A DNA stretch of 64,000 bases. Source: Pseudomonadota bacterium. GTDB taxonomy: Bacteria; Pseudomonadota; Gammaproteobacteria; Steroidobacterales; Steroidobacteraceae. Below, one piece after another: positions 51,214 to 64,000 of the stretch. A model generated the notes under the pieces. The model searched no databases, was not told the origin of the DNA, and saw nothing but the letters and a program-made list of their open reading frames with translations. How positions within the stretch are numbered: position 1 is the first letter of the stretch; every line of letters begins with the position of its first letter. The translations under genes were made by a program, and so were the position numbers. The DNA is taken from positions 41,565 through 105,564 of the forward strand of contig JAKAXA010000013.1 in NCBI GenBank assembly GCA_021816775.1, given 5' to 3'.

Positions 51214-51261
51214 TCAACCGCAGGAGACCCAGACACGCAGCCGCGAGAAAGCCCGCGAGAA

Positions 51262-51366
51262 CAACTTTCCTACGCCAGCATGAACTGGATCAGGTTCGAA
51301 GGGTCGCCGCGCCGCGCCTGCAGGCGCCATCGGCCTCTCAGCCCCTTGCCGGGGCTCCCCCAGTCA
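51262..51366 (-). ncRNA. TPP riboswitch (thi-box)
   Basis: Minus strand: GACTGGGGGAGCCCCGGCAAGGGGCTGAGAGGCC...GCGACCCTTCGAACCTGATCCAGTTCATGCTGGCGTAGGAAAG; upstream of thiC. Confidence 0.95.
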
Positions 51367-51683
51367 CGGCGCTGACGATAGTACGCCACCGCTCGCCGGT
51401 CAACGGCGTGCGCCGCAAGCGCGAACGCGGCCTGTCGCGCCGACCGCAATGGCGCAATGCATCCACCCCCCTTTGGATTCTCTCGATGTGCAGGCTCGCG
51501 GCCCGCAGTCGCTACGTGACACGCCGACGGAACTCGCCGGTCACGGTCTCGGGCGCCCCGCAAACCGCACCGCTCGCTCGCCAACCGGCACAAGCGCCCG
51601 GGCGCACCGGCGCCGCTGCGCCGCTCAGCGCACCGGCGATCGCGCCGCGTTGGCGGCCGCCGCAGGCGGCGCGCCGTGCCGCC

Positions 51684-57278: not shown

Positions 57279-58016
57279 TCACTCGAGATTGATGCGCACG
57301 GCCGCCGCCGCCGCAAGCGGCGCGAGGGTCATGCCGAATACCGCCAGGGCGGCCAACAAGGTGAGCGGCGCGCCGTAGGGCTCACCGCGGATCGCCAGCT
57401 GCGTCGCGTGGGCGCCGAAGATCAGCACCGGGATGGCGAGCGGCAGCGTCAGCAGCGACAGCAGCGCGCCGGCACGGCGCACCCCCAGGGTGAGCGCCGC
57501 CCCAATCGCCCCGAGCAGACTCAGCGTTACCGTGCCGAGCGTCACCGAGGCGAGAATGCCAGGCAGCGCGCGCCCCGGCACACCGAGCGCGACGCCGGCG
57601 ATCGGCGCCATCAGCGCCAGCGGCAGCCCGGTGAGCAGCCAGTGTGCAGCTGTCTTGGCCGAGAGCAATCCCGTCAGCGCGCGACCCGAGAGCGCGTACT
57701 GCTCGAGCGTGCCGTCCTGGGCGTCGTCGCGGAACAGGAACTCCAGTGCGAGCAACGAGGCGAGCAGCGCCGCGGCCCACAGCACGCCCGAGGCGATGTG
57801 GCGTAAGCGGCTGAGCTCCGGGGTGATGGCGAGCGGAAAGAGCGTGGTCACCATCGCGAAGAAGGCGAGCGGCTGGACCAGCTGGCTCGCCTTGCGGAAC
57901 GCGAGCCTGAGGTCGCGCTCGAGCATCAGGCGGGCCACCCCCCAGGCCGAGGGCGCCGAGCCGCGTCCCAGCTGCACGCTCGGCAGCGCGGCTTGCATGA
58001 CATTCACCTCAGCCAC
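57279..58016 (-). CDS. ccmB: Heme exporter protein CcmB
   Basis: LMLERDLRLAFRKASQLVQPLAFFAMVTTLFPLAITPE...LEFLFRDDAQDGTLEQYALS. Confidence 0.94.
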   Translation of the reverse strand: MAEVNVMQAALPSVQLGRGSAPSAWGVARLMLERDLRLAFRKASQLVQPLAFFAMVTTLFPLAITPELSRLRHIASGVLWAAALLASLLALEFLFRDDAQDGTLEQYALSGRALTGLLSAKTAAHWLLTGLPLALMAPIAGVALGVPGRALPGILASVTLGTVTLSLLGAIGAALTLGVRRAGALLSLLTLPLAIPVLIFGAHATQLAIRGEPYGAPLTLLAALAVFGMTLAPLAAAAAVRINLE

Positions 58017-58638
58017 CTCCCAGCTCCAATCGTCTCAGTCCCCGCTCGGACACCGCAAGCGGATGGTGCACGGCGGCCATGGCCAGCCCGCCGGCGGCGA
58101 GGTGTTCATCGATCAGGGTGCCCACCAGTTGCTGGCCTTCGACATCCAGATTGGTGGTAGGTTCATCGAGAAGCCATAGCGGCACGGCCATCAGGAGGAG
58201 CCCCGCGAGCGCCACGCGCCGCTTCTGCCCGGCCGAGAGCGTGCGGACCGGCCGGTCCGACCAGCGCTGGCCCCCGACCCGCTCGAGCGCCCTCTCGAGC
58301 TCGGAGCGCGCGAAGCGCCGGCGAACCCCGACCCAATAATGCAGGTTCTCGCGCCCGGTGAGCTCCATTTTCAACGGCGGCTCATGCCCGAGATACGCCA
58401 TCTGACTGTGAAAGCCGGGCAGATCCCGGTGCACGTCCTCGCCCCGCCAGCGGATCTGGCCGCCCTCCGGATAGGACAGACCGCACACCGTGCGCAGCAG
58501 GCTCGTCTTGCCGGCCCCGTTCGGGCCTGACAGTTGCAGGCACTCCCCGCTGTTGACCGAAAAGCCGACGCCGCGCAATACATGCCGCTCGCCACGCCAT
58601 AGGTGGAGATTTTCGACCTGGAGCATCGCCTCGGACAT
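58009..58638 (-). CDS. ccmA: Heme ABC exporter ATP-binding protein CcmA
   Basis: LQLSGPNGAGKTSLLRTVCGLSYPEGG...LSAGQKRRVALAGLLLMAVPLWLLDEPTTNLD. Confidence 0.95.
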   Translation of the reverse strand: MSEAMLQVENLHLWRGERHVLRGVGFSVNSGECLQLSGPNGAGKTSLLRTVCGLSYPEGGQIRWRGEDVHRDLPGFHSQMAYLGHEPPLKMELTGRENLHYWVGVRRRFARSELERALERVGGQRWSDRPVRTLSAGQKRRVALAGLLLMAVPLWLLDEPTTNLDVEGQQLVGTLIDEHLAAGGLAMAAVHHPLAVSERGLRRLELGGG

Positions 58639-58805
58639 GCCGCTTGTGGACCCATCACAGTCTCGATGGGCCGTAAGTCTCGCCAATTCGGGCATTTATC
58701 TCCATAGGCAGTCGGCAACCCCCCGTACGTAAGGGTGCGTATTGCACTGCCCCGCCCTTGGGTCCCTGTGGATCCGGCGCTCGGGTAGAATCAGCCGCCT
58801 GCCCT

Positions 58806-59156
58806 GCCCGGGTGGCGAAATAGGTAGACGCAAGGGACTTAACAAAAGTTGAGCACCCGGGGCGGAAACGCCCGGTGTGAATGGGGTCAAAGTCGGTGGA
58901 CCAGCAGCACGTTGCGGTGGCTGCAATACCGAGCTAAGCCGCGGCCCGCGGGGGGCGCGGAAAGTGTAGAGACTTGACGGCCCCTGCCTAAACCGCGCGG
59001 CGCGCACCGATGCGGCAGGGCAAAGGTAAAGTCCAGACCCCAAATGCGCGCCGGCCGGCAACAGGACCGAGCAGCGTGCAGCGGCGTAAGCCGTAGCGGG
59101 TACGAAAATCCCTCGGGGGCAACCCCATGCCGGTTCGAGTCCGGCCCCGGGCACCA
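58806..59156 (+). tRNA. tRNA-Leu(UAA), split by a group I intron; encoded CCA
   Basis: 5' exon GCCCGGGTGGCGAAATAGGTAGACGCAAGGGACTT (58806-58840) + 3' exon AAAATCCCTCGGGGGCAACCCCATGCCGGTTCGAGTCCGGCCCCGGGCACCA (59105-59156); acceptor GCCCGGG/CCCGGGC, anticodon stem AGGGA/TCCCT, loop CTTAAAA, T-arm GCCGG-TTCGAGT-CCGGC. Confidence 0.95.
58841..59104 (+). ncRNA. Group I self-splicing intron (IC3-like) in the tRNA-Leu anticodon loop
   Basis: P3 GGGGTC/GGCCCC, P7 GACTT/AAGTC in GTGTAGAGACTTGACGGCCCC...GGTAAAGTCCAGACC, P8 CCCTGCC/GGCAGGG, GAAA-capped P2, terminal G at 59104. Confidence 0.93.
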
Positions 59157-59366
59157 GGTGGGTTCAACCTCCACCTTCCCTGCCCGTCCTCCAACATCCC
59201 AACATTGCGCGGAAACACTGGAAATCGTAGGGTTTCCAGAGCGACGCGCGCCGACACCCGTCTACCGCCATCCAAGGGCATGATAACACGCCTGAGGTGC
59301 GAAAAGTGGGGTAAGGCGGGTCGGTGTGAGTCCCGGTTACCCCAAAGGGCTGGTGGAGCTGCGCCA

Positions 59367-60695
59367 ATGTTGTCGGATGCGAAAATTCGGAGCCTTAGAC
59401 CGAAGGAGAAGGCATACAAGGTCTATGACGATCGCGGGCTGTATACGGTGGTCAACCCGAACGGGTCGCGGTGGTGGCGGTTCAAGTACAAGTACGACGG
59501 CAAGGAGCGCGGGATTTCGCTCGGGGTGTACCCGGATGTGACGCTGCAATACGCGCGGGAGCAGCTGCAGGAGGCGCGGCAGTTGCTCGCTCGGGGGATC
59601 GATCCGAGTGCGCACCGGCGGACGGTGAAGATCGCCAGGGCGGACACCTTCAAAGTGATTGCGGAGGAATGGCTGGAGATGCAGGCGGAGCGGCTGGCGC
59701 CGATCACGATGGCCAAGGCGCGGTGGATTTTGGGCTCGTTCGTCTACCCTCGCCTGGAATCGCGGCCGATTGCCGAGATCACGGCACCCGAGGTCCTGGC
59801 CGTGCTGCGGCCGATCGAGGGCCGAGGGATGAATGAGACCGCCCACCGAGCTCTGCAGCGCTGCGGGCAGATCTTCCGGTACGCCATTGCGACGGGTCGA
59901 GCGACGCGGGACATCACGTCCGACCTACGGGGCGCCTTGGCGCCGGTCGTGGTGGAGAACCGCGCGGCGATCACGGAGCCGGCGAAGATCGGCGCCCTAC
60001 TCCGCGCCATTGATGACTACATAGGACATCCGACGACGCTGATTGCCCTGAAGCTGTCCCCACTCGTCTTTCTACCTCCCAGCGAGCTTCGGGCGGCGGA
60101 ATGGAGCGAAATCGACCTGCAAGCGGCAGAATGGCGCGTCCCGGCAGCGCGGATGAAGATGCGGGAGCGGCATATCGTTCCGCTGGCCTCGCAGGCAGTC
60201 GCCCTCCTCCGAGAGCTCCGCAGTGTGACCGGCAAGGGCAGATACCTCTTTCCGTCGCTTCGCACCGCGGATAGACCGATGTCCGTGAACACCGTGAATG
60301 CCGCCTTGCGACGCCTCGGCTATGCGAGTGATGAAATGACGGCACACGGCTTTCGAGCTATGGCGTGCACGTGCCTCAACGAACTCGGTTGGCACCCCGA
60401 CGTGATCGAATTACAGATGGCGCATGCGGAGCGGAACAAGGTCCGGGCCGCGTATAACCGGGCCGAGCGGCTCGCAGACCGCAGAAAGATGATGCAGGCT
60501 TGGGCGGATTATCTCGATGGGCTGCGCGCGGGCCGGCGCGAATCGAGGGTCACGGACGAAGCAATTCAACGTGCTGAGGGAATCCCGCAATGCGGGAACC
60601 GGGCACAAAGCGCGAGTAATTGCCGGAAACCGCCAAAATGTGGGGCTTCCGCCGTTTCTCAGCTGGAGCTATTTTGCGTCCCCGGTGGCGAGTGA
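59367..60695 (+). CDS. int: Tyrosine recombinase/integrase (P4-type, DUF4102 N-terminus)
   Basis: MLSDAKIRSLRPKEKAYKVYDDRGLYTVVNPNGSRWWRFKYKYDGKERGISLGVYPDVTLQYAREQ; catalytic region LSPLVFLPPSELRAAEWSEID...HGFRAMACTCLNELG. Confidence 0.93.
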   Translation: MLSDAKIRSLRPKEKAYKVYDDRGLYTVVNPNGSRWWRFKYKYDGKERGISLGVYPDVTLQYAREQLQEARQLLARGIDPSAHRRTVKIARADTFKVIAEEWLEMQAERLAPITMAKARWILGSFVYPRLESRPIAEITAPEVLAVLRPIEGRGMNETAHRALQRCGQIFRYAIATGRATRDITSDLRGALAPVVVENRAAITEPAKIGALLRAIDDYIGHPTTLIALKLSPLVFLPPSELRAAEWSEIDLQAAEWRVPAARMKMRERHIVPLASQAVALLRELRSVTGKGRYLFPSLRTADRPMSVNTVNAALRRLGYASDEMTAHGFRAMACTCLNELGWHPDVIELQMAHAERNKVRAAYNRAERLADRRKMMQAWADYLDGLRAGRRESRVTDEAIQRAEGIPQCGNRAQSASNCRKPPKCGASAVSQLELFCVPGGE

Positions 60696-60733
60696 AGCCG
60701 GGATCAGGTGAGAAGAGACCAACTGAGCACACT

Positions 60734-60961
60734 ATGTGCGTTTCGAATCGCGTTGTGATCGACTCCGCCCATTACGGGAAGCCCGTCATACACGGCACGC
60801 GGCTTCCGGTAGCTGTCGTCGTTGGCAGCCTGGCAGGCGGGATGTCATTTGCCGAAATCGAACACGAGTACGACATCACTGCTGACGATATTCGCGCGGC
60901 ACTAAAGTTCGTTATGGAGCTCGCCCAACAGCAATCGTTTCATCCGCTACCGGTACCATAG
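60734..60961 (+). CDS. DUF433-domain antitoxin-like protein
   Basis: VIDSAHYGKPVIHGTRLPVAVVVGSLAGGMSFAEIEHEYDITADDIRAALKF. Confidence 0.88.
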   Translation: MCVSNRVVIDSAHYGKPVIHGTRLPVAVVVGSLAGGMSFAEIEHEYDITADDIRAALKFVMELAQQQSFHPLPVP

Positions 60962-60985
60962 GCATTCCCTATAAGCGAAGCGCAG

Positions 60986-61435
60986 ATGCGAACAGTGTAT
61001 CTCGACCTCTGCTGTATTAACCGACCGTTTGACGACCAGCACCAGGCTCGCGTGCGGGTCGAAGCGGAAGCAGTTCTCGGACTGATCGAGCTGGCGAGAC
61101 GTGGCGAACTTCAGTGGATCGGCAGCGATATTCTGGACCTGGAATCCAGCCGCAATCCGGATGCCGACCGGCGGCGCAGGGTCGAAATGCTGCTGAGCTG
61201 CGTCACGTCAAAAGTGGCGGCAGGAGAACGGGAACAGCAGAGAGGCCGAGAGCTGGAAGGCATAGGGTTTGCCGCCTTCGATGCCCTGCATCTTGCCTGT
61301 GCTGAGAGTGCCGGCGCGCAGGTGCTATTGACTACGGACGACCGGCTGCGGGGCCGCGCCGGGCGCGAGACTGCCCGACTAGCCGTACAGGTAGAAAATC
61401 CGGCAAAATGGTACTCAGAGGCAGTTACACCATGA
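60986..61435 (+). CDS. PIN-domain protein (putative toxin)
   Basis: MRTVYLDLCCINRPFDDQHQARVRVEAEAVLGLIELA...FAAFDALHLACAESAGAQVLLTTDDRL. Confidence 0.82.
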   Translation: MRTVYLDLCCINRPFDDQHQARVRVEAEAVLGLIELARRGELQWIGSDILDLESSRNPDADRRRRVEMLLSCVTSKVAAGEREQQRGRELEGIGFAAFDALHLACAESAGAQVLLTTDDRLRGRAGRETARLAVQVENPAKWYSEAVTP

Positions 61436-61671
61436 ACGCGGCAATAGAAACTATCGACGGCGGCACCGCGACCCCAGCCGAGCTGCGGCGGGTCGGAATC
61501 GACGCGCTCGTCAAAGCCCTGGGACCGGTCGGCATGGCCCGGTTTCTTCAGCAGTTCGACCCTGGGCATGGAGATTACACTACCGAGCGGCAGGCCATCC
61601 TCGGGAATCCGACGGTCGATGAACTCGTTGACGAAGTGGGGCGTCGGCGAGGAACTCCGCCCTCCAAGTAA
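61432..61671 (+). CDS. Small hypothetical protein, third gene of the DUF433-PIN locus
   Basis: MNAAIETIDGGTATPAELRRVGIDALVKALGPVGMARFLQQFDPGHGDYTTERQAILGNPTVDELVDEVGRRRGTPPSK; start overlaps the PIN stop by 4 nt. Confidence 0.75.
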   Translation: MNAAIETIDGGTATPAELRRVGIDALVKALGPVGMARFLQQFDPGHGDYTTERQAILGNPTVDELVDEVGRRRGTPPSK

Positions 61672-61772
61672 CCCTTCAGCCTGTTCGACCGGGGAATGCT
61701 GCCCGATCGGCCAGGAGAGGTGGCGCGTTCAATGCGCCGGGAGGAAAAGCGCTATCAACTGAAGGAGTGCCC

Positions 61773-63757
61773 CTAGCGCGACTTTACTGGCCCTCGGACG
61801 ACGTTGTGGCGTAAGTGGCTGATGGGCGGGGGATTACAGGGAGAGGCTACGTATACACAAAGGGAGGCTGAGCCGGCACGAGATGACGGAAGAGGCGCAA
61901 CACCTCGGGGTCGGTCTGTTCCAGCGTCCACTCGCAGCGGGGTCGTCCGCCGCGTTTTCCGGCGGGCTTGAGCACCATGGCCAGGCGCACGGTGGCCAGC
62001 AGATCGAGCAGCCCCGAGAGCCCTTCGGTGCGATGCAGTTCTCGAGCCTGGAACTCGAGGAGCCGTCCGAGCAGCAGCGCCAGCAGGCAGCAGAAGGTGT
62101 GCACGCAGATCTTCTGATCGGTCCAGTGATACTGCGGGCGCACGGCCATGTGCTCATCGTCCTTCAGTTGGCGGAACGCCTCTTCGACCTCACTCTGACC
62201 ACGATAGGCGAGCAGGATCTGCTCGTCTGACCATTCGTTGCGGTCGGTGATGAGGAAGCGCTTGCCGTAGAGCTCATTGGCCAACGCATCGATCGCTGCG
62301 GTGTCGATCTGGTAATGCAGTCGATCGGCGCCGTCTTGGTCGGGGTGGTAGTCGGCTTTCAGCACGCGGCTCACGTGCTGCCCCGAGAGGATGGCTTGGA
62401 TTTGCCGCTGCGCGGCCTCCGCAGTGCGCGGCCCGGAGCGCGGCTTGGCGAGCTGGGTTTTCCAGCGCTCGAGCGCCCGGGTCGCCTTCTTCACATGCTG
62501 CATCAGGCCGCGGATCTGTCCCTGGCGCAGCTGCTCGCTGATCAAGAGCAGCACCGTGCGCCGCTTGCCCCAGATCTGCTGCTCCAGGCGCAGCACGGGG
62601 ATTGACCCGAGCCGCGGGCTCTTGAGGATGTGATACCGCTCGTGCGGGATGGCCAGCAGCTGCGGGTGCTGCGCGGGCACCAGGGAGGCGACGTAGCTGA
62701 AGGAAGCCTCATCGACCAGACGCTGGTTGGCCTTGGAGAGATTGCCTTTGTCGTAGACCAGGGTGATCTGATCGACTTCCACGGCAAGCTTCCCCAGGCG
62801 CTCGCGGATCAGCGTCAAGGAGTCGGGGAAGGAGCGCACATCGACGCGGGTGCCTTCGTAGACCTGCGAGCACAGCGGGATGTGCCCCTCCCGTGAGACC
62901 AGCAACGCGAGGCTGAAGAGGCGCAGGTCCGCGCGCTTTTGCTTCGAGTGCCCGCGCTGAGGGAGTTCGGGGCGCACGTTGGTGGAGGCGATGAAGGTGA
63001 AGAAGTTGGTGGCATCGTAGAAGAGCGTATCGAGCTTGATGCCGAGCTCGCGCACGATGCGCTCGGTCAGCTCGTCCTCGATTGCGCGCAGCGCCTCGAG
63101 CTTCACACAGTCCATCTGGTCCCAGAAGAACTGCGAGGTCAGCTGCTCGAGCTGAACCTGCGGAAAGAGCCGCGCGAGGGAGGTCTGCTGTGCCCAAGCG
63201 GCCCAACCTCGCTTCGAGCGCGGACGAATGGCCCGATTGAGTGCCGCCAGCAGCAGCGTGGTGCCGACCGACAGTCCCCGGGCTCCCTCGGGCACGTGCC
63301 GATCGATGATCTGCACCACCCCCAGCCGGTCCGCCGCGGCCTTCAGCGCCGCGACATCACCGTGCTGGAAGGAGCGGATCCGCAGCTCCCCCTGGGGCGC
63401 CTGCAGCAACCGGTTCAGTAGCTCATCGGCGCTGCCGAGATAAAGCAGCGGTACGGGGCGCGGCTTGCCGCGCACGCGGCGCGACTCGACGATCCGCCAG
63501 TAGGTGCGTCCGGCGACCCGGTGCTTTTGCAGGCTGGCCACTGGTTTTGTGTATACCATGGCCACAATGTCCTGTCAACCGCATATTGATCTCTACAAAC
63601 CTCGGACTACCAGCTATTGTAGCGGCGACGTGCTGAGACAATGTTTTGTATATACGGCACCGAGAGGTGGGCGCACGGCTTCAAAAGGCTGAAATTCAGC
63701 CCTTTTGCAAAACTCAGGACGTCAAAGGAGATGCGAGCGTCAGTAAAGTCGCGCTAG
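61773..63757 (-). mobile_element. IS1634/IS4-like insertion sequence
   Basis: Perfect 16-bp terminal inverted repeats ctagcgcgactttact (61773-61788) / agtaaagtcgcgctag (63742-63757), with partial complementarity further inward, flanking one transposase ORF. Confidence 0.85.
61847..63559 (-). CDS. IS1634/IS4-like (DDE) transposase
   Basis: MVYTKPVASLQKHRVAGRTYWRIVESRRVRGKPRPVPLLYLGSADELLNRL...LFYDATNFFTFIAST...YRGQSEVEEAFRQLKDDEHMAVRPQYHWTDQKICVHTFCC. Confidence 0.92.
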   Translation of the reverse strand: MVYTKPVASLQKHRVAGRTYWRIVESRRVRGKPRPVPLLYLGSADELLNRLLQAPQGELRIRSFQHGDVAALKAAADRLGVVQIIDRHVPEGARGLSVGTTLLLAALNRAIRPRSKRGWAAWAQQTSLARLFPQVQLEQLTSQFFWDQMDCVKLEALRAIEDELTERIVRELGIKLDTLFYDATNFFTFIASTNVRPELPQRGHSKQKRADLRLFSLALLVSREGHIPLCSQVYEGTRVDVRSFPDSLTLIRERLGKLAVEVDQITLVYDKGNLSKANQRLVDEASFSYVASLVPAQHPQLLAIPHERYHILKSPRLGSIPVLRLEQQIWGKRRTVLLLISEQLRQGQIRGLMQHVKKATRALERWKTQLAKPRSGPRTAEAAQRQIQAILSGQHVSRVLKADYHPDQDGADRLHYQIDTAAIDALANELYGKRFLITDRNEWSDEQILLAYRGQSEVEEAFRQLKDDEHMAVRPQYHWTDQKICVHTFCCLLALLLGRLLEFQARELHRTEGLSGLLDLLATVRLAMVLKPAGKRGGRPRCEWTLEQTDPEVLRLFRHLVPAQPPFVYT

Positions 63758-63873
63758 ATGCCATAGACGGTACGGTCCATGTCCTCATTGGTCGTAGGAC
63801 CCATTGGACCGTCGTAGCAGTGTTCCTCTACGCGCAAGAGCGGATCATCTAGTGTAGTGTCCCGTAAATGACG

Positions 63874-64000
63874 TTACAGCACACTCTTTTTGCCTCTGGA
63901 CAGGCTGGAACCGGGTTTAATCTGCTCCATTTTGGCTCGCGCTCGCGCGATCTTCTCGACGATCTCCTCGACCGTGGCTGTCCAGATAAAGGGCTTCGGC
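63874..64000 (-). CDS. IS630-family transposase C-terminus, truncated by window edge
   Basis: Reverse strand reads PKPFIWTATVEEIVEKIARARAKMEQIKPGSSLSRGKKSVL*. Confidence 0.7.
   Translation of the reverse strand, partial: PKPFIWTATVEEIVEKIARARAKMEQIKPGSSLSRGKKSVL

Follow-up and report, generated by a model that had tools for sequence, protein, structure and literature searches.

The genome studied here has a single detectable tRNA-Leu(UAA) gene, and this gene is split between U34 and A35 by a compact group I ribozyme that lacks an endonuclease gene and belongs to a proteobacterial group of introns turning over within the host genus (a reading to which we assign a probability of about 95%). 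The gene lies on the + strand of a 64,000-nt stretch of DNA (the window) and consists of a 5' exon ending in GGGACUU, the last base of which is U34 (58806..58840), a 264-nt intron of 66% GC with a terminal G (58841..59104) and a 3' exon reading AAAAUCCC...CACCA (59105..59156). Intron-aware ARAGORN calls tRNA-Leu(taa), i(36,264), i.e. a 264-nt intron after gene position 35 and thus after U34, and the joined exons (58806-58840 + 59105-59156) yield a perfect 87-nt tRNA-Leu(taa). The coordinates, junction and intron length previously proposed from the letters of the DNA (the sequence-only reading) were therefore right. The exon junction is real, because uninterrupted genes of congeners read exactly ...GGGACTTAAAATCCC..., an empty site found unbroken in 11 congeners; the 3' exon is also 100% identical to that of several intronless congeners. 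On DNA alone the junction could be shifted by up to 2 nt, since AA starts both the intron and the 3' exon; two features place it at U34/A35, namely the splice-site U.G pair within P1 and the G that ends the intron. This G, likewise foreseen, is position 59104, and its column (G299) is invariant in A1, the genus alignment (18 sequences, including one from a different family in the same order), which also supports the 5' exon. Plain ARAGORN without intron search and Rfam returned zero tRNA calls in the 64,000-nt window, just as had been predicted for scanners that lack intron support, so that annotation based on such scans would list tRNA-Leu(UAA) as absent. The authors of tRNAscan-SE 2.0 state that finding such insertions was not among its design aims (PMC8450103).

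The intron has the architecture of a group I ribozyme, with the P3-P8 and P4-P6 helices, a P7 pseudoknotted to P3, a U.G pair at the 5' splice site in 18/18 sequences and the terminal G (all following positions on the + strand). P1 (58838..58853) pairs exon CUU and intron AAC with GUUGAG and places the U.G at the splice site; its innermost pair appears in A1 in CG, GC, UA, AU, GU and UG forms. P2 (58854..58879, seen in A1) is capped by a GAAA tetraloop. P3 (58883-58888 with 58979-58984) is 100% paired and shows two-sided changes in 4/6 pairs among 27 distant relatives from outside the genus. P4 (58893-58897/58928-58932) is paired in 27/27 of these introns, again with two-sided changes, and is present in the genus alignment as well; P5 (58904-58908/58920-58924), supported by both sets, is one short stem-loop without a P5abc extension. 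P6 (58933-58935/58963-58965), the place at which relatives carry an HNH gene, is followed by P6a (58939-58943/58956-58960, seen in A1). P7, the guanosine-binding helix (58971-58975 with 59029-59033), is 99.3% paired; outside the genus 3/5 of its pairs show two-sided change (8-10 of 27 sequences), GACTT/AAGTC being replaced by GAGCA/TGCTC or GACTA/TAGTC. The P3 (GGGGTC/GGCCCC) and P7 pairings of the sequence-only reading thus proved correct, both covarying among distant relatives. Its P8 stood in part: TGCC/GGCA (58985-58988/59019-59022) is conserved, but relatives do not preserve the longer CCCTGCC/GGCAGGG, GGCACGG being found in L034 and others. The genus alignment and the distant relatives support this short P8 together with an extension, CCGC/GCGG (58993-58996/59012-59015). 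P9 (59037-59040/59098-59101) and P9b, a GNAA hairpin (59082-59085/59090-59093), show compensatory changes in 6/18 and in up to 7/18 sequences, respectively.

Taken over P1-P9, A1 comprises 60 pairs, in which 96.5% of the pair cells are standard and 19/60 pairs show two-sided changes; 0/500 shuffles were as good, and slid versions of the structure reached 29-42%. In the 27 introns from outside the genus 95.4% of the core cells are paired and 20/30 pairs show two-sided change (0/500 shuffles). The minimum-energy fold of the intron is a long-range mixture and not the native core, which is to be expected because the RNA is pseudoknotted. The insertion into the anticodon loop between U34 and A35, the compact size and the lack of a P5abc extension are structural features of subgroup IC3, in agreement with the proposal of a compact, endonuclease-free intron of the tRNA (IC3-like) kind.

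Introns of the protein-spliced bulge-helix-bulge kind sit in the anticodon loop of tRNAs in archaea and eukaryotes, and the position of the window intron matches theirs. Such an origin has virtually no probability here and is ruled out by the group I core: the 264 nt hold a full P3-P9 group I fold with covariation in P7, and intronless alleles exist as well as group I relatives in other bacteria. Hardly more credible, in our judgement very improbable, is a dead remnant that no longer splices. In its favor, no promoter-like site passed an otherwise uninformative promoter/terminator scan. Against it, all core pairs are intact, the U.G and the terminal G are kept, the tRNA exons are perfect, the intron core is 97% identical to that of the sister genome G067, and no other copy of the gene was found. 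The search for a second tRNA-Leu(UAA), an intact copy of which, with the split one unexpressed, had been named beforehand as a finding that would speak against the intron, covered an RF00005 census, a T-arm pattern and a pattern for intronless tRNA-Leu(UAA), and it came back empty in an assembly that is 97% complete in 90 contigs and from which a further copy could be missing. UUA codons are rare but used (6/13,866 codons in long ORFs of the window). Given that no second gene was found and UUA codons are in use, we infer that splicing is necessary; in half of the genus the UUA-reading tRNA apparently must be made by a ribozyme. The same census did not find tRNA-Leu(CAA), Gly(TCC), Thr(GGT), Ser(CGA), Ile(GAT) and Ala(TGC), which are missing from the assembly or also interrupted.

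Judged from its structure, the window intron is presumably self-splicing. The pre-tRNA would fold such that exon CUU and intron GAG pair to form P1 with the U.G at the splice site, a guanosine bound by P7 would attack the 5' splice site, and the freed 5' exon would then attack after the terminal G, joining the tRNA halves.

A covariance model built solely from the 27 proteobacterial introns outside the genus, and hence held out from it, finds the intron at 113.5 bits (E 3e-27) as its only match in the window. It also scores two further introns of the same genome, a tRNA-Ile(CAU)-like one (42.8 bits) and one in 23S rRNA (34.6 bits), and has no match in four intronless loci. RF00028 had been suggested as the judge, and the lack of a significant covariance-model hit as a refutation. 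With RF00028 there is indeed no match in 58600-59300, even at E<=1; the model of the group itself, in contrast, matches at E 3e-27. We dropped RF00028 for this purpose, as at its gathering threshold it detects 0/20 relatives with the same tRNA-Leu intron. Nawrocki et al. chose subtype models since a single alignment seemed unlikely to capture the diversity of group I introns (PMC6125680). The failure is a gap of that model and not of the intron, and a refutation test by RF00028 would wrongly sink the intron because the model is blind to the whole tRNA-Leu group. RF00028 does find the two other group I introns of the genome, at 68.9 and 55.5 bits. One of them lies in a second split tRNA (L070, G000:C54:49205-49487), which we read by eye as tRNA-Ile(CAU) (Ile2) and which ARAGORN miscalls as tRNA-Gln; the other (L001, G000:C54:151785-152023) interrupts the 23S rRNA just upstream of AGCGAAATTCC.

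The tRNA-Leu(UAA) introns of cyanobacteria and plastids (Anabaena type) interrupt the same gene at the same point, U34/A35, as had been claimed, and presumably share with the window intron the compact size, the UUGAG guide beside the splice site and the order of the core. In contrast to them, the window intron resides in a proteobacterial host, is high in GC and has a patchy distribution within one genus, and some of its relatives carry an antisense HNH gene. It is not the first of its kind, because split tRNA-Leu(UAA) genes have already been reported in other gammaproteobacteria. Vepritskiy et al. (2002) reportedly described a tRNA-Leu(UAA) intron in a deep-subsurface gammaproteobacterium. 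Thiomargarita nelsonii and Beggiatoa BOGUAY have a split tRNA-Leu(UAA) with a putative group I intron (PMC4853749), i.e. the same gene is split in Gammaproteobacteria; the structure is worked out here and not in that report, to which our analysis also adds a genus-wide distribution, a held-out model and HNH-bearing relatives. The Azoarcus-type tRNA-Ile(CAU) introns have similar core strings but lie in a different tRNA and, by inspection, after the CAU anticodon, whereas the window intron lies inside the anticodon; group I introns of tRNA-Ile2 in Acidovorax and Burkholderia are described with tRNAscan-SE 2.0 (PMC8450103).

Within the genus, 29/58 genomes show the split pattern alone and 11/58 the intact pattern alone, while none shows both. 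An even sample of the class gave 14/185 split and 107/185 intact, with one genome (G258) having both. This genome holds a split, HNH-bearing and an intact tRNA-Leu(UAA) (G258:C275, G258:C1; L250, L258); both alleles may be real, or the pair may be an artefact of binning. The pattern scan also caught intronless tRNAs that read AATCCCTTGAGC after the anticodon (e.g. L087, L150, L160); these were removed by intron-aware ARAGORN. Among the matches listed, split tRNA-Leu(UAA) genes occur in Achromobacter, Variovorax, Cupriavidus, Pseudomonas jinjuensis, Stutzerimonas, Lysobacter, Rhodanobacter, Thiohalophilus and one Planctomycetia bin; a search of phage records for the split gene gave no match at the DNA level. 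Cultured carriers of the intron include Peristeroidobacter soli and Thiohalophilus thiocyanatoxydans. The tRNA-Leu(UAA) intron of Vogesella mureinivorans (L139) is 179 nt long, and part of its P4-P6 domain appears to be missing.

The history of the intron was read against ccmA (ABC ATPase; 58009..58695, - strand), the divergent neighbour of the tRNA, which adjoins it in nearly all loci of the genus where the contig reaches far enough and was used as host marker. On the ccmA tree the intron changes state at least 8 times, 7 of these changes being forced by well-supported branches. One alternative is vertical descent, in which the intron is ancestral to the genus and was lost precisely and independently many times (e.g. 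by recombination with intronless DNA or cDNA). Several observations fit it: all 12 genomes of the window's subclade have the intron, which is thus stable there, some nearby splits recur in both the intron and the ccmA tree (e.g. L213 + window; L221+L224+L228), and shuffling the labels of the ccmA tree makes its fit to the intron data far worse. In the AU test the two data sets nevertheless reject each other's trees (p about 2e-5 and lower), no more than 6/24 splits are common to both, and well-supported conflicts exist, such as the intron clade L207+L208+L229 (100) versus L205+L229 (97) in ccmA. Introns of Peristeroidobacter and Steroidobacter, moreover, fall among those of the genus in the intron tree (the wide tree comprises 64 introns and leaves out the betaproteobacterial P7 form, AGAGAGCAGACGG). 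We regard vertical descent as a serious contender and lean somewhat against it. Since at least 8 state changes combine with the conflict between the trees, turnover and not simple descent is indicated; the data are best read as transfer or recombination combined with loss, between which the single marker ccmA cannot apportion the changes. The earlier choice between inheritance and separate acquisition is hereby refined to stability in the window's subclade and recurrent gains or losses in the genus as a whole. A 2014 review saw little evidence for horizontal movement of bacterial introns between species (PMC3984707).

While the window intron (264 nt) contains no endonuclease gene, other members of the tRNA-Leu(UAA) group to which it belongs bear an antisense HNH gene in P6. 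At least 9 named gammaproteobacterial introns, 688-706 nt long, encode an HNH protein of about 154 aa in the P6 loop on the strand opposite to the tRNA (L089, L092, L095, L102, L105, L126, L156, L162, L164); among the matches listed, such introns make up about 10% of the named relatives. An AGGAG-like site precedes the start in several of them. The proteins share an almost unchanging HNH core, LELDH..G....N...NLRLLCPNCHA, and all pairwise comparisons gave a dN/dS under 0.17, at dS values that were saturated or close to it. The HNH protein belongs to phage family phrog_10822 (E 1.6e-48), its best phage relatives being 37-50% identical. The congener G005 has a pseudogene with one in-frame TAG (L079, G005:C65:48731-49219, - strand), and in L189 only the first part of the gene is left; both represent steps of HNH decay. 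At E<=1e-20 the HNH subfamily occurs 3 times in 185 class genomes, each time within a tRNA-Leu(UAA) intron.

These genes suggest homing, in which the antisense HNH protein would drive the intron into empty tRNA genes and the window copy would descend from one that had lost the gene. The single P6 location of the conserved reading frame, the decayed and truncated copies, the confinement of the subfamily to this intron and the repeated state changes on the ccmA tree all speak for such a scenario. To be set against them are the lack of an intact HNH copy in all 58 congeners (0/58), the lack of any trace of the gene in the window intron, and the fact that ccmA is one gene which may itself have recombined; we consider the odds of homing evenly balanced. 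Slightly below even odds, and thus tentatively, we place the broader proposal that proteobacterial tRNA-Leu(UAA) introns are a mobile family whose dedicated antisense P6 HNH gene drives spread between genera, that the window intron is an HNH-free survivor after homing and decay, and that about half of the genus shows the outcome. An endonuclease gene inside a tRNA intron is also known from the tRNA-fMet of Synechocystis, where it is of the PD-(D/E)XK type and sits in P1 (PMC3073962), and antisense endonuclease genes are known in group I introns of nuclear rDNA, where they are eukaryotic and of the His-Cys type (PMC9548176); in the relatives of the window intron the gene is HNH, antisense, in P6 and in a bacterial tRNA-Leu. 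Within the limited literature searched, an antisense HNH gene was not described for any bacterial tRNA-Leu intron. The interest of the present case lies in a presence/absence polymorphism within one genus together with a variant that carries the HNH gene elsewhere in the group. With 29 split and 11 empty alleles in the genus, and live and decayed endonuclease genes in relatives, the old question of the coming and going of bacterial tRNA introns becomes directly testable.

Downstream of the gene, a tyrosine integrase (59367..60695, + strand; Arm-DNA-bind_3, Phage_int_M, Phage_integrase) starts 211 bp past the tRNA 3' end and is followed by DUF433 and PIN genes and a DDE-type transposase (59367-64000). 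The integrase is part of this island and not of the intron, and the island probably integrated at the tRNA-Leu 3' exon; the assembly contains the tRNA-Leu(UAA) 3' end a single time, and the contig stops at 64000, short of the far end of the island. On many contigs of the same genome duplicated 3' ends of tRNA Glu, Cys, Thr, Phe, Asn, Gly, Val and Pro are found, the kind of trace that islands leave on integrating into tRNA genes. Elsewhere in the window, Rfam places a TPP riboswitch at 51250-51371 on the - strand (69.3 bits).
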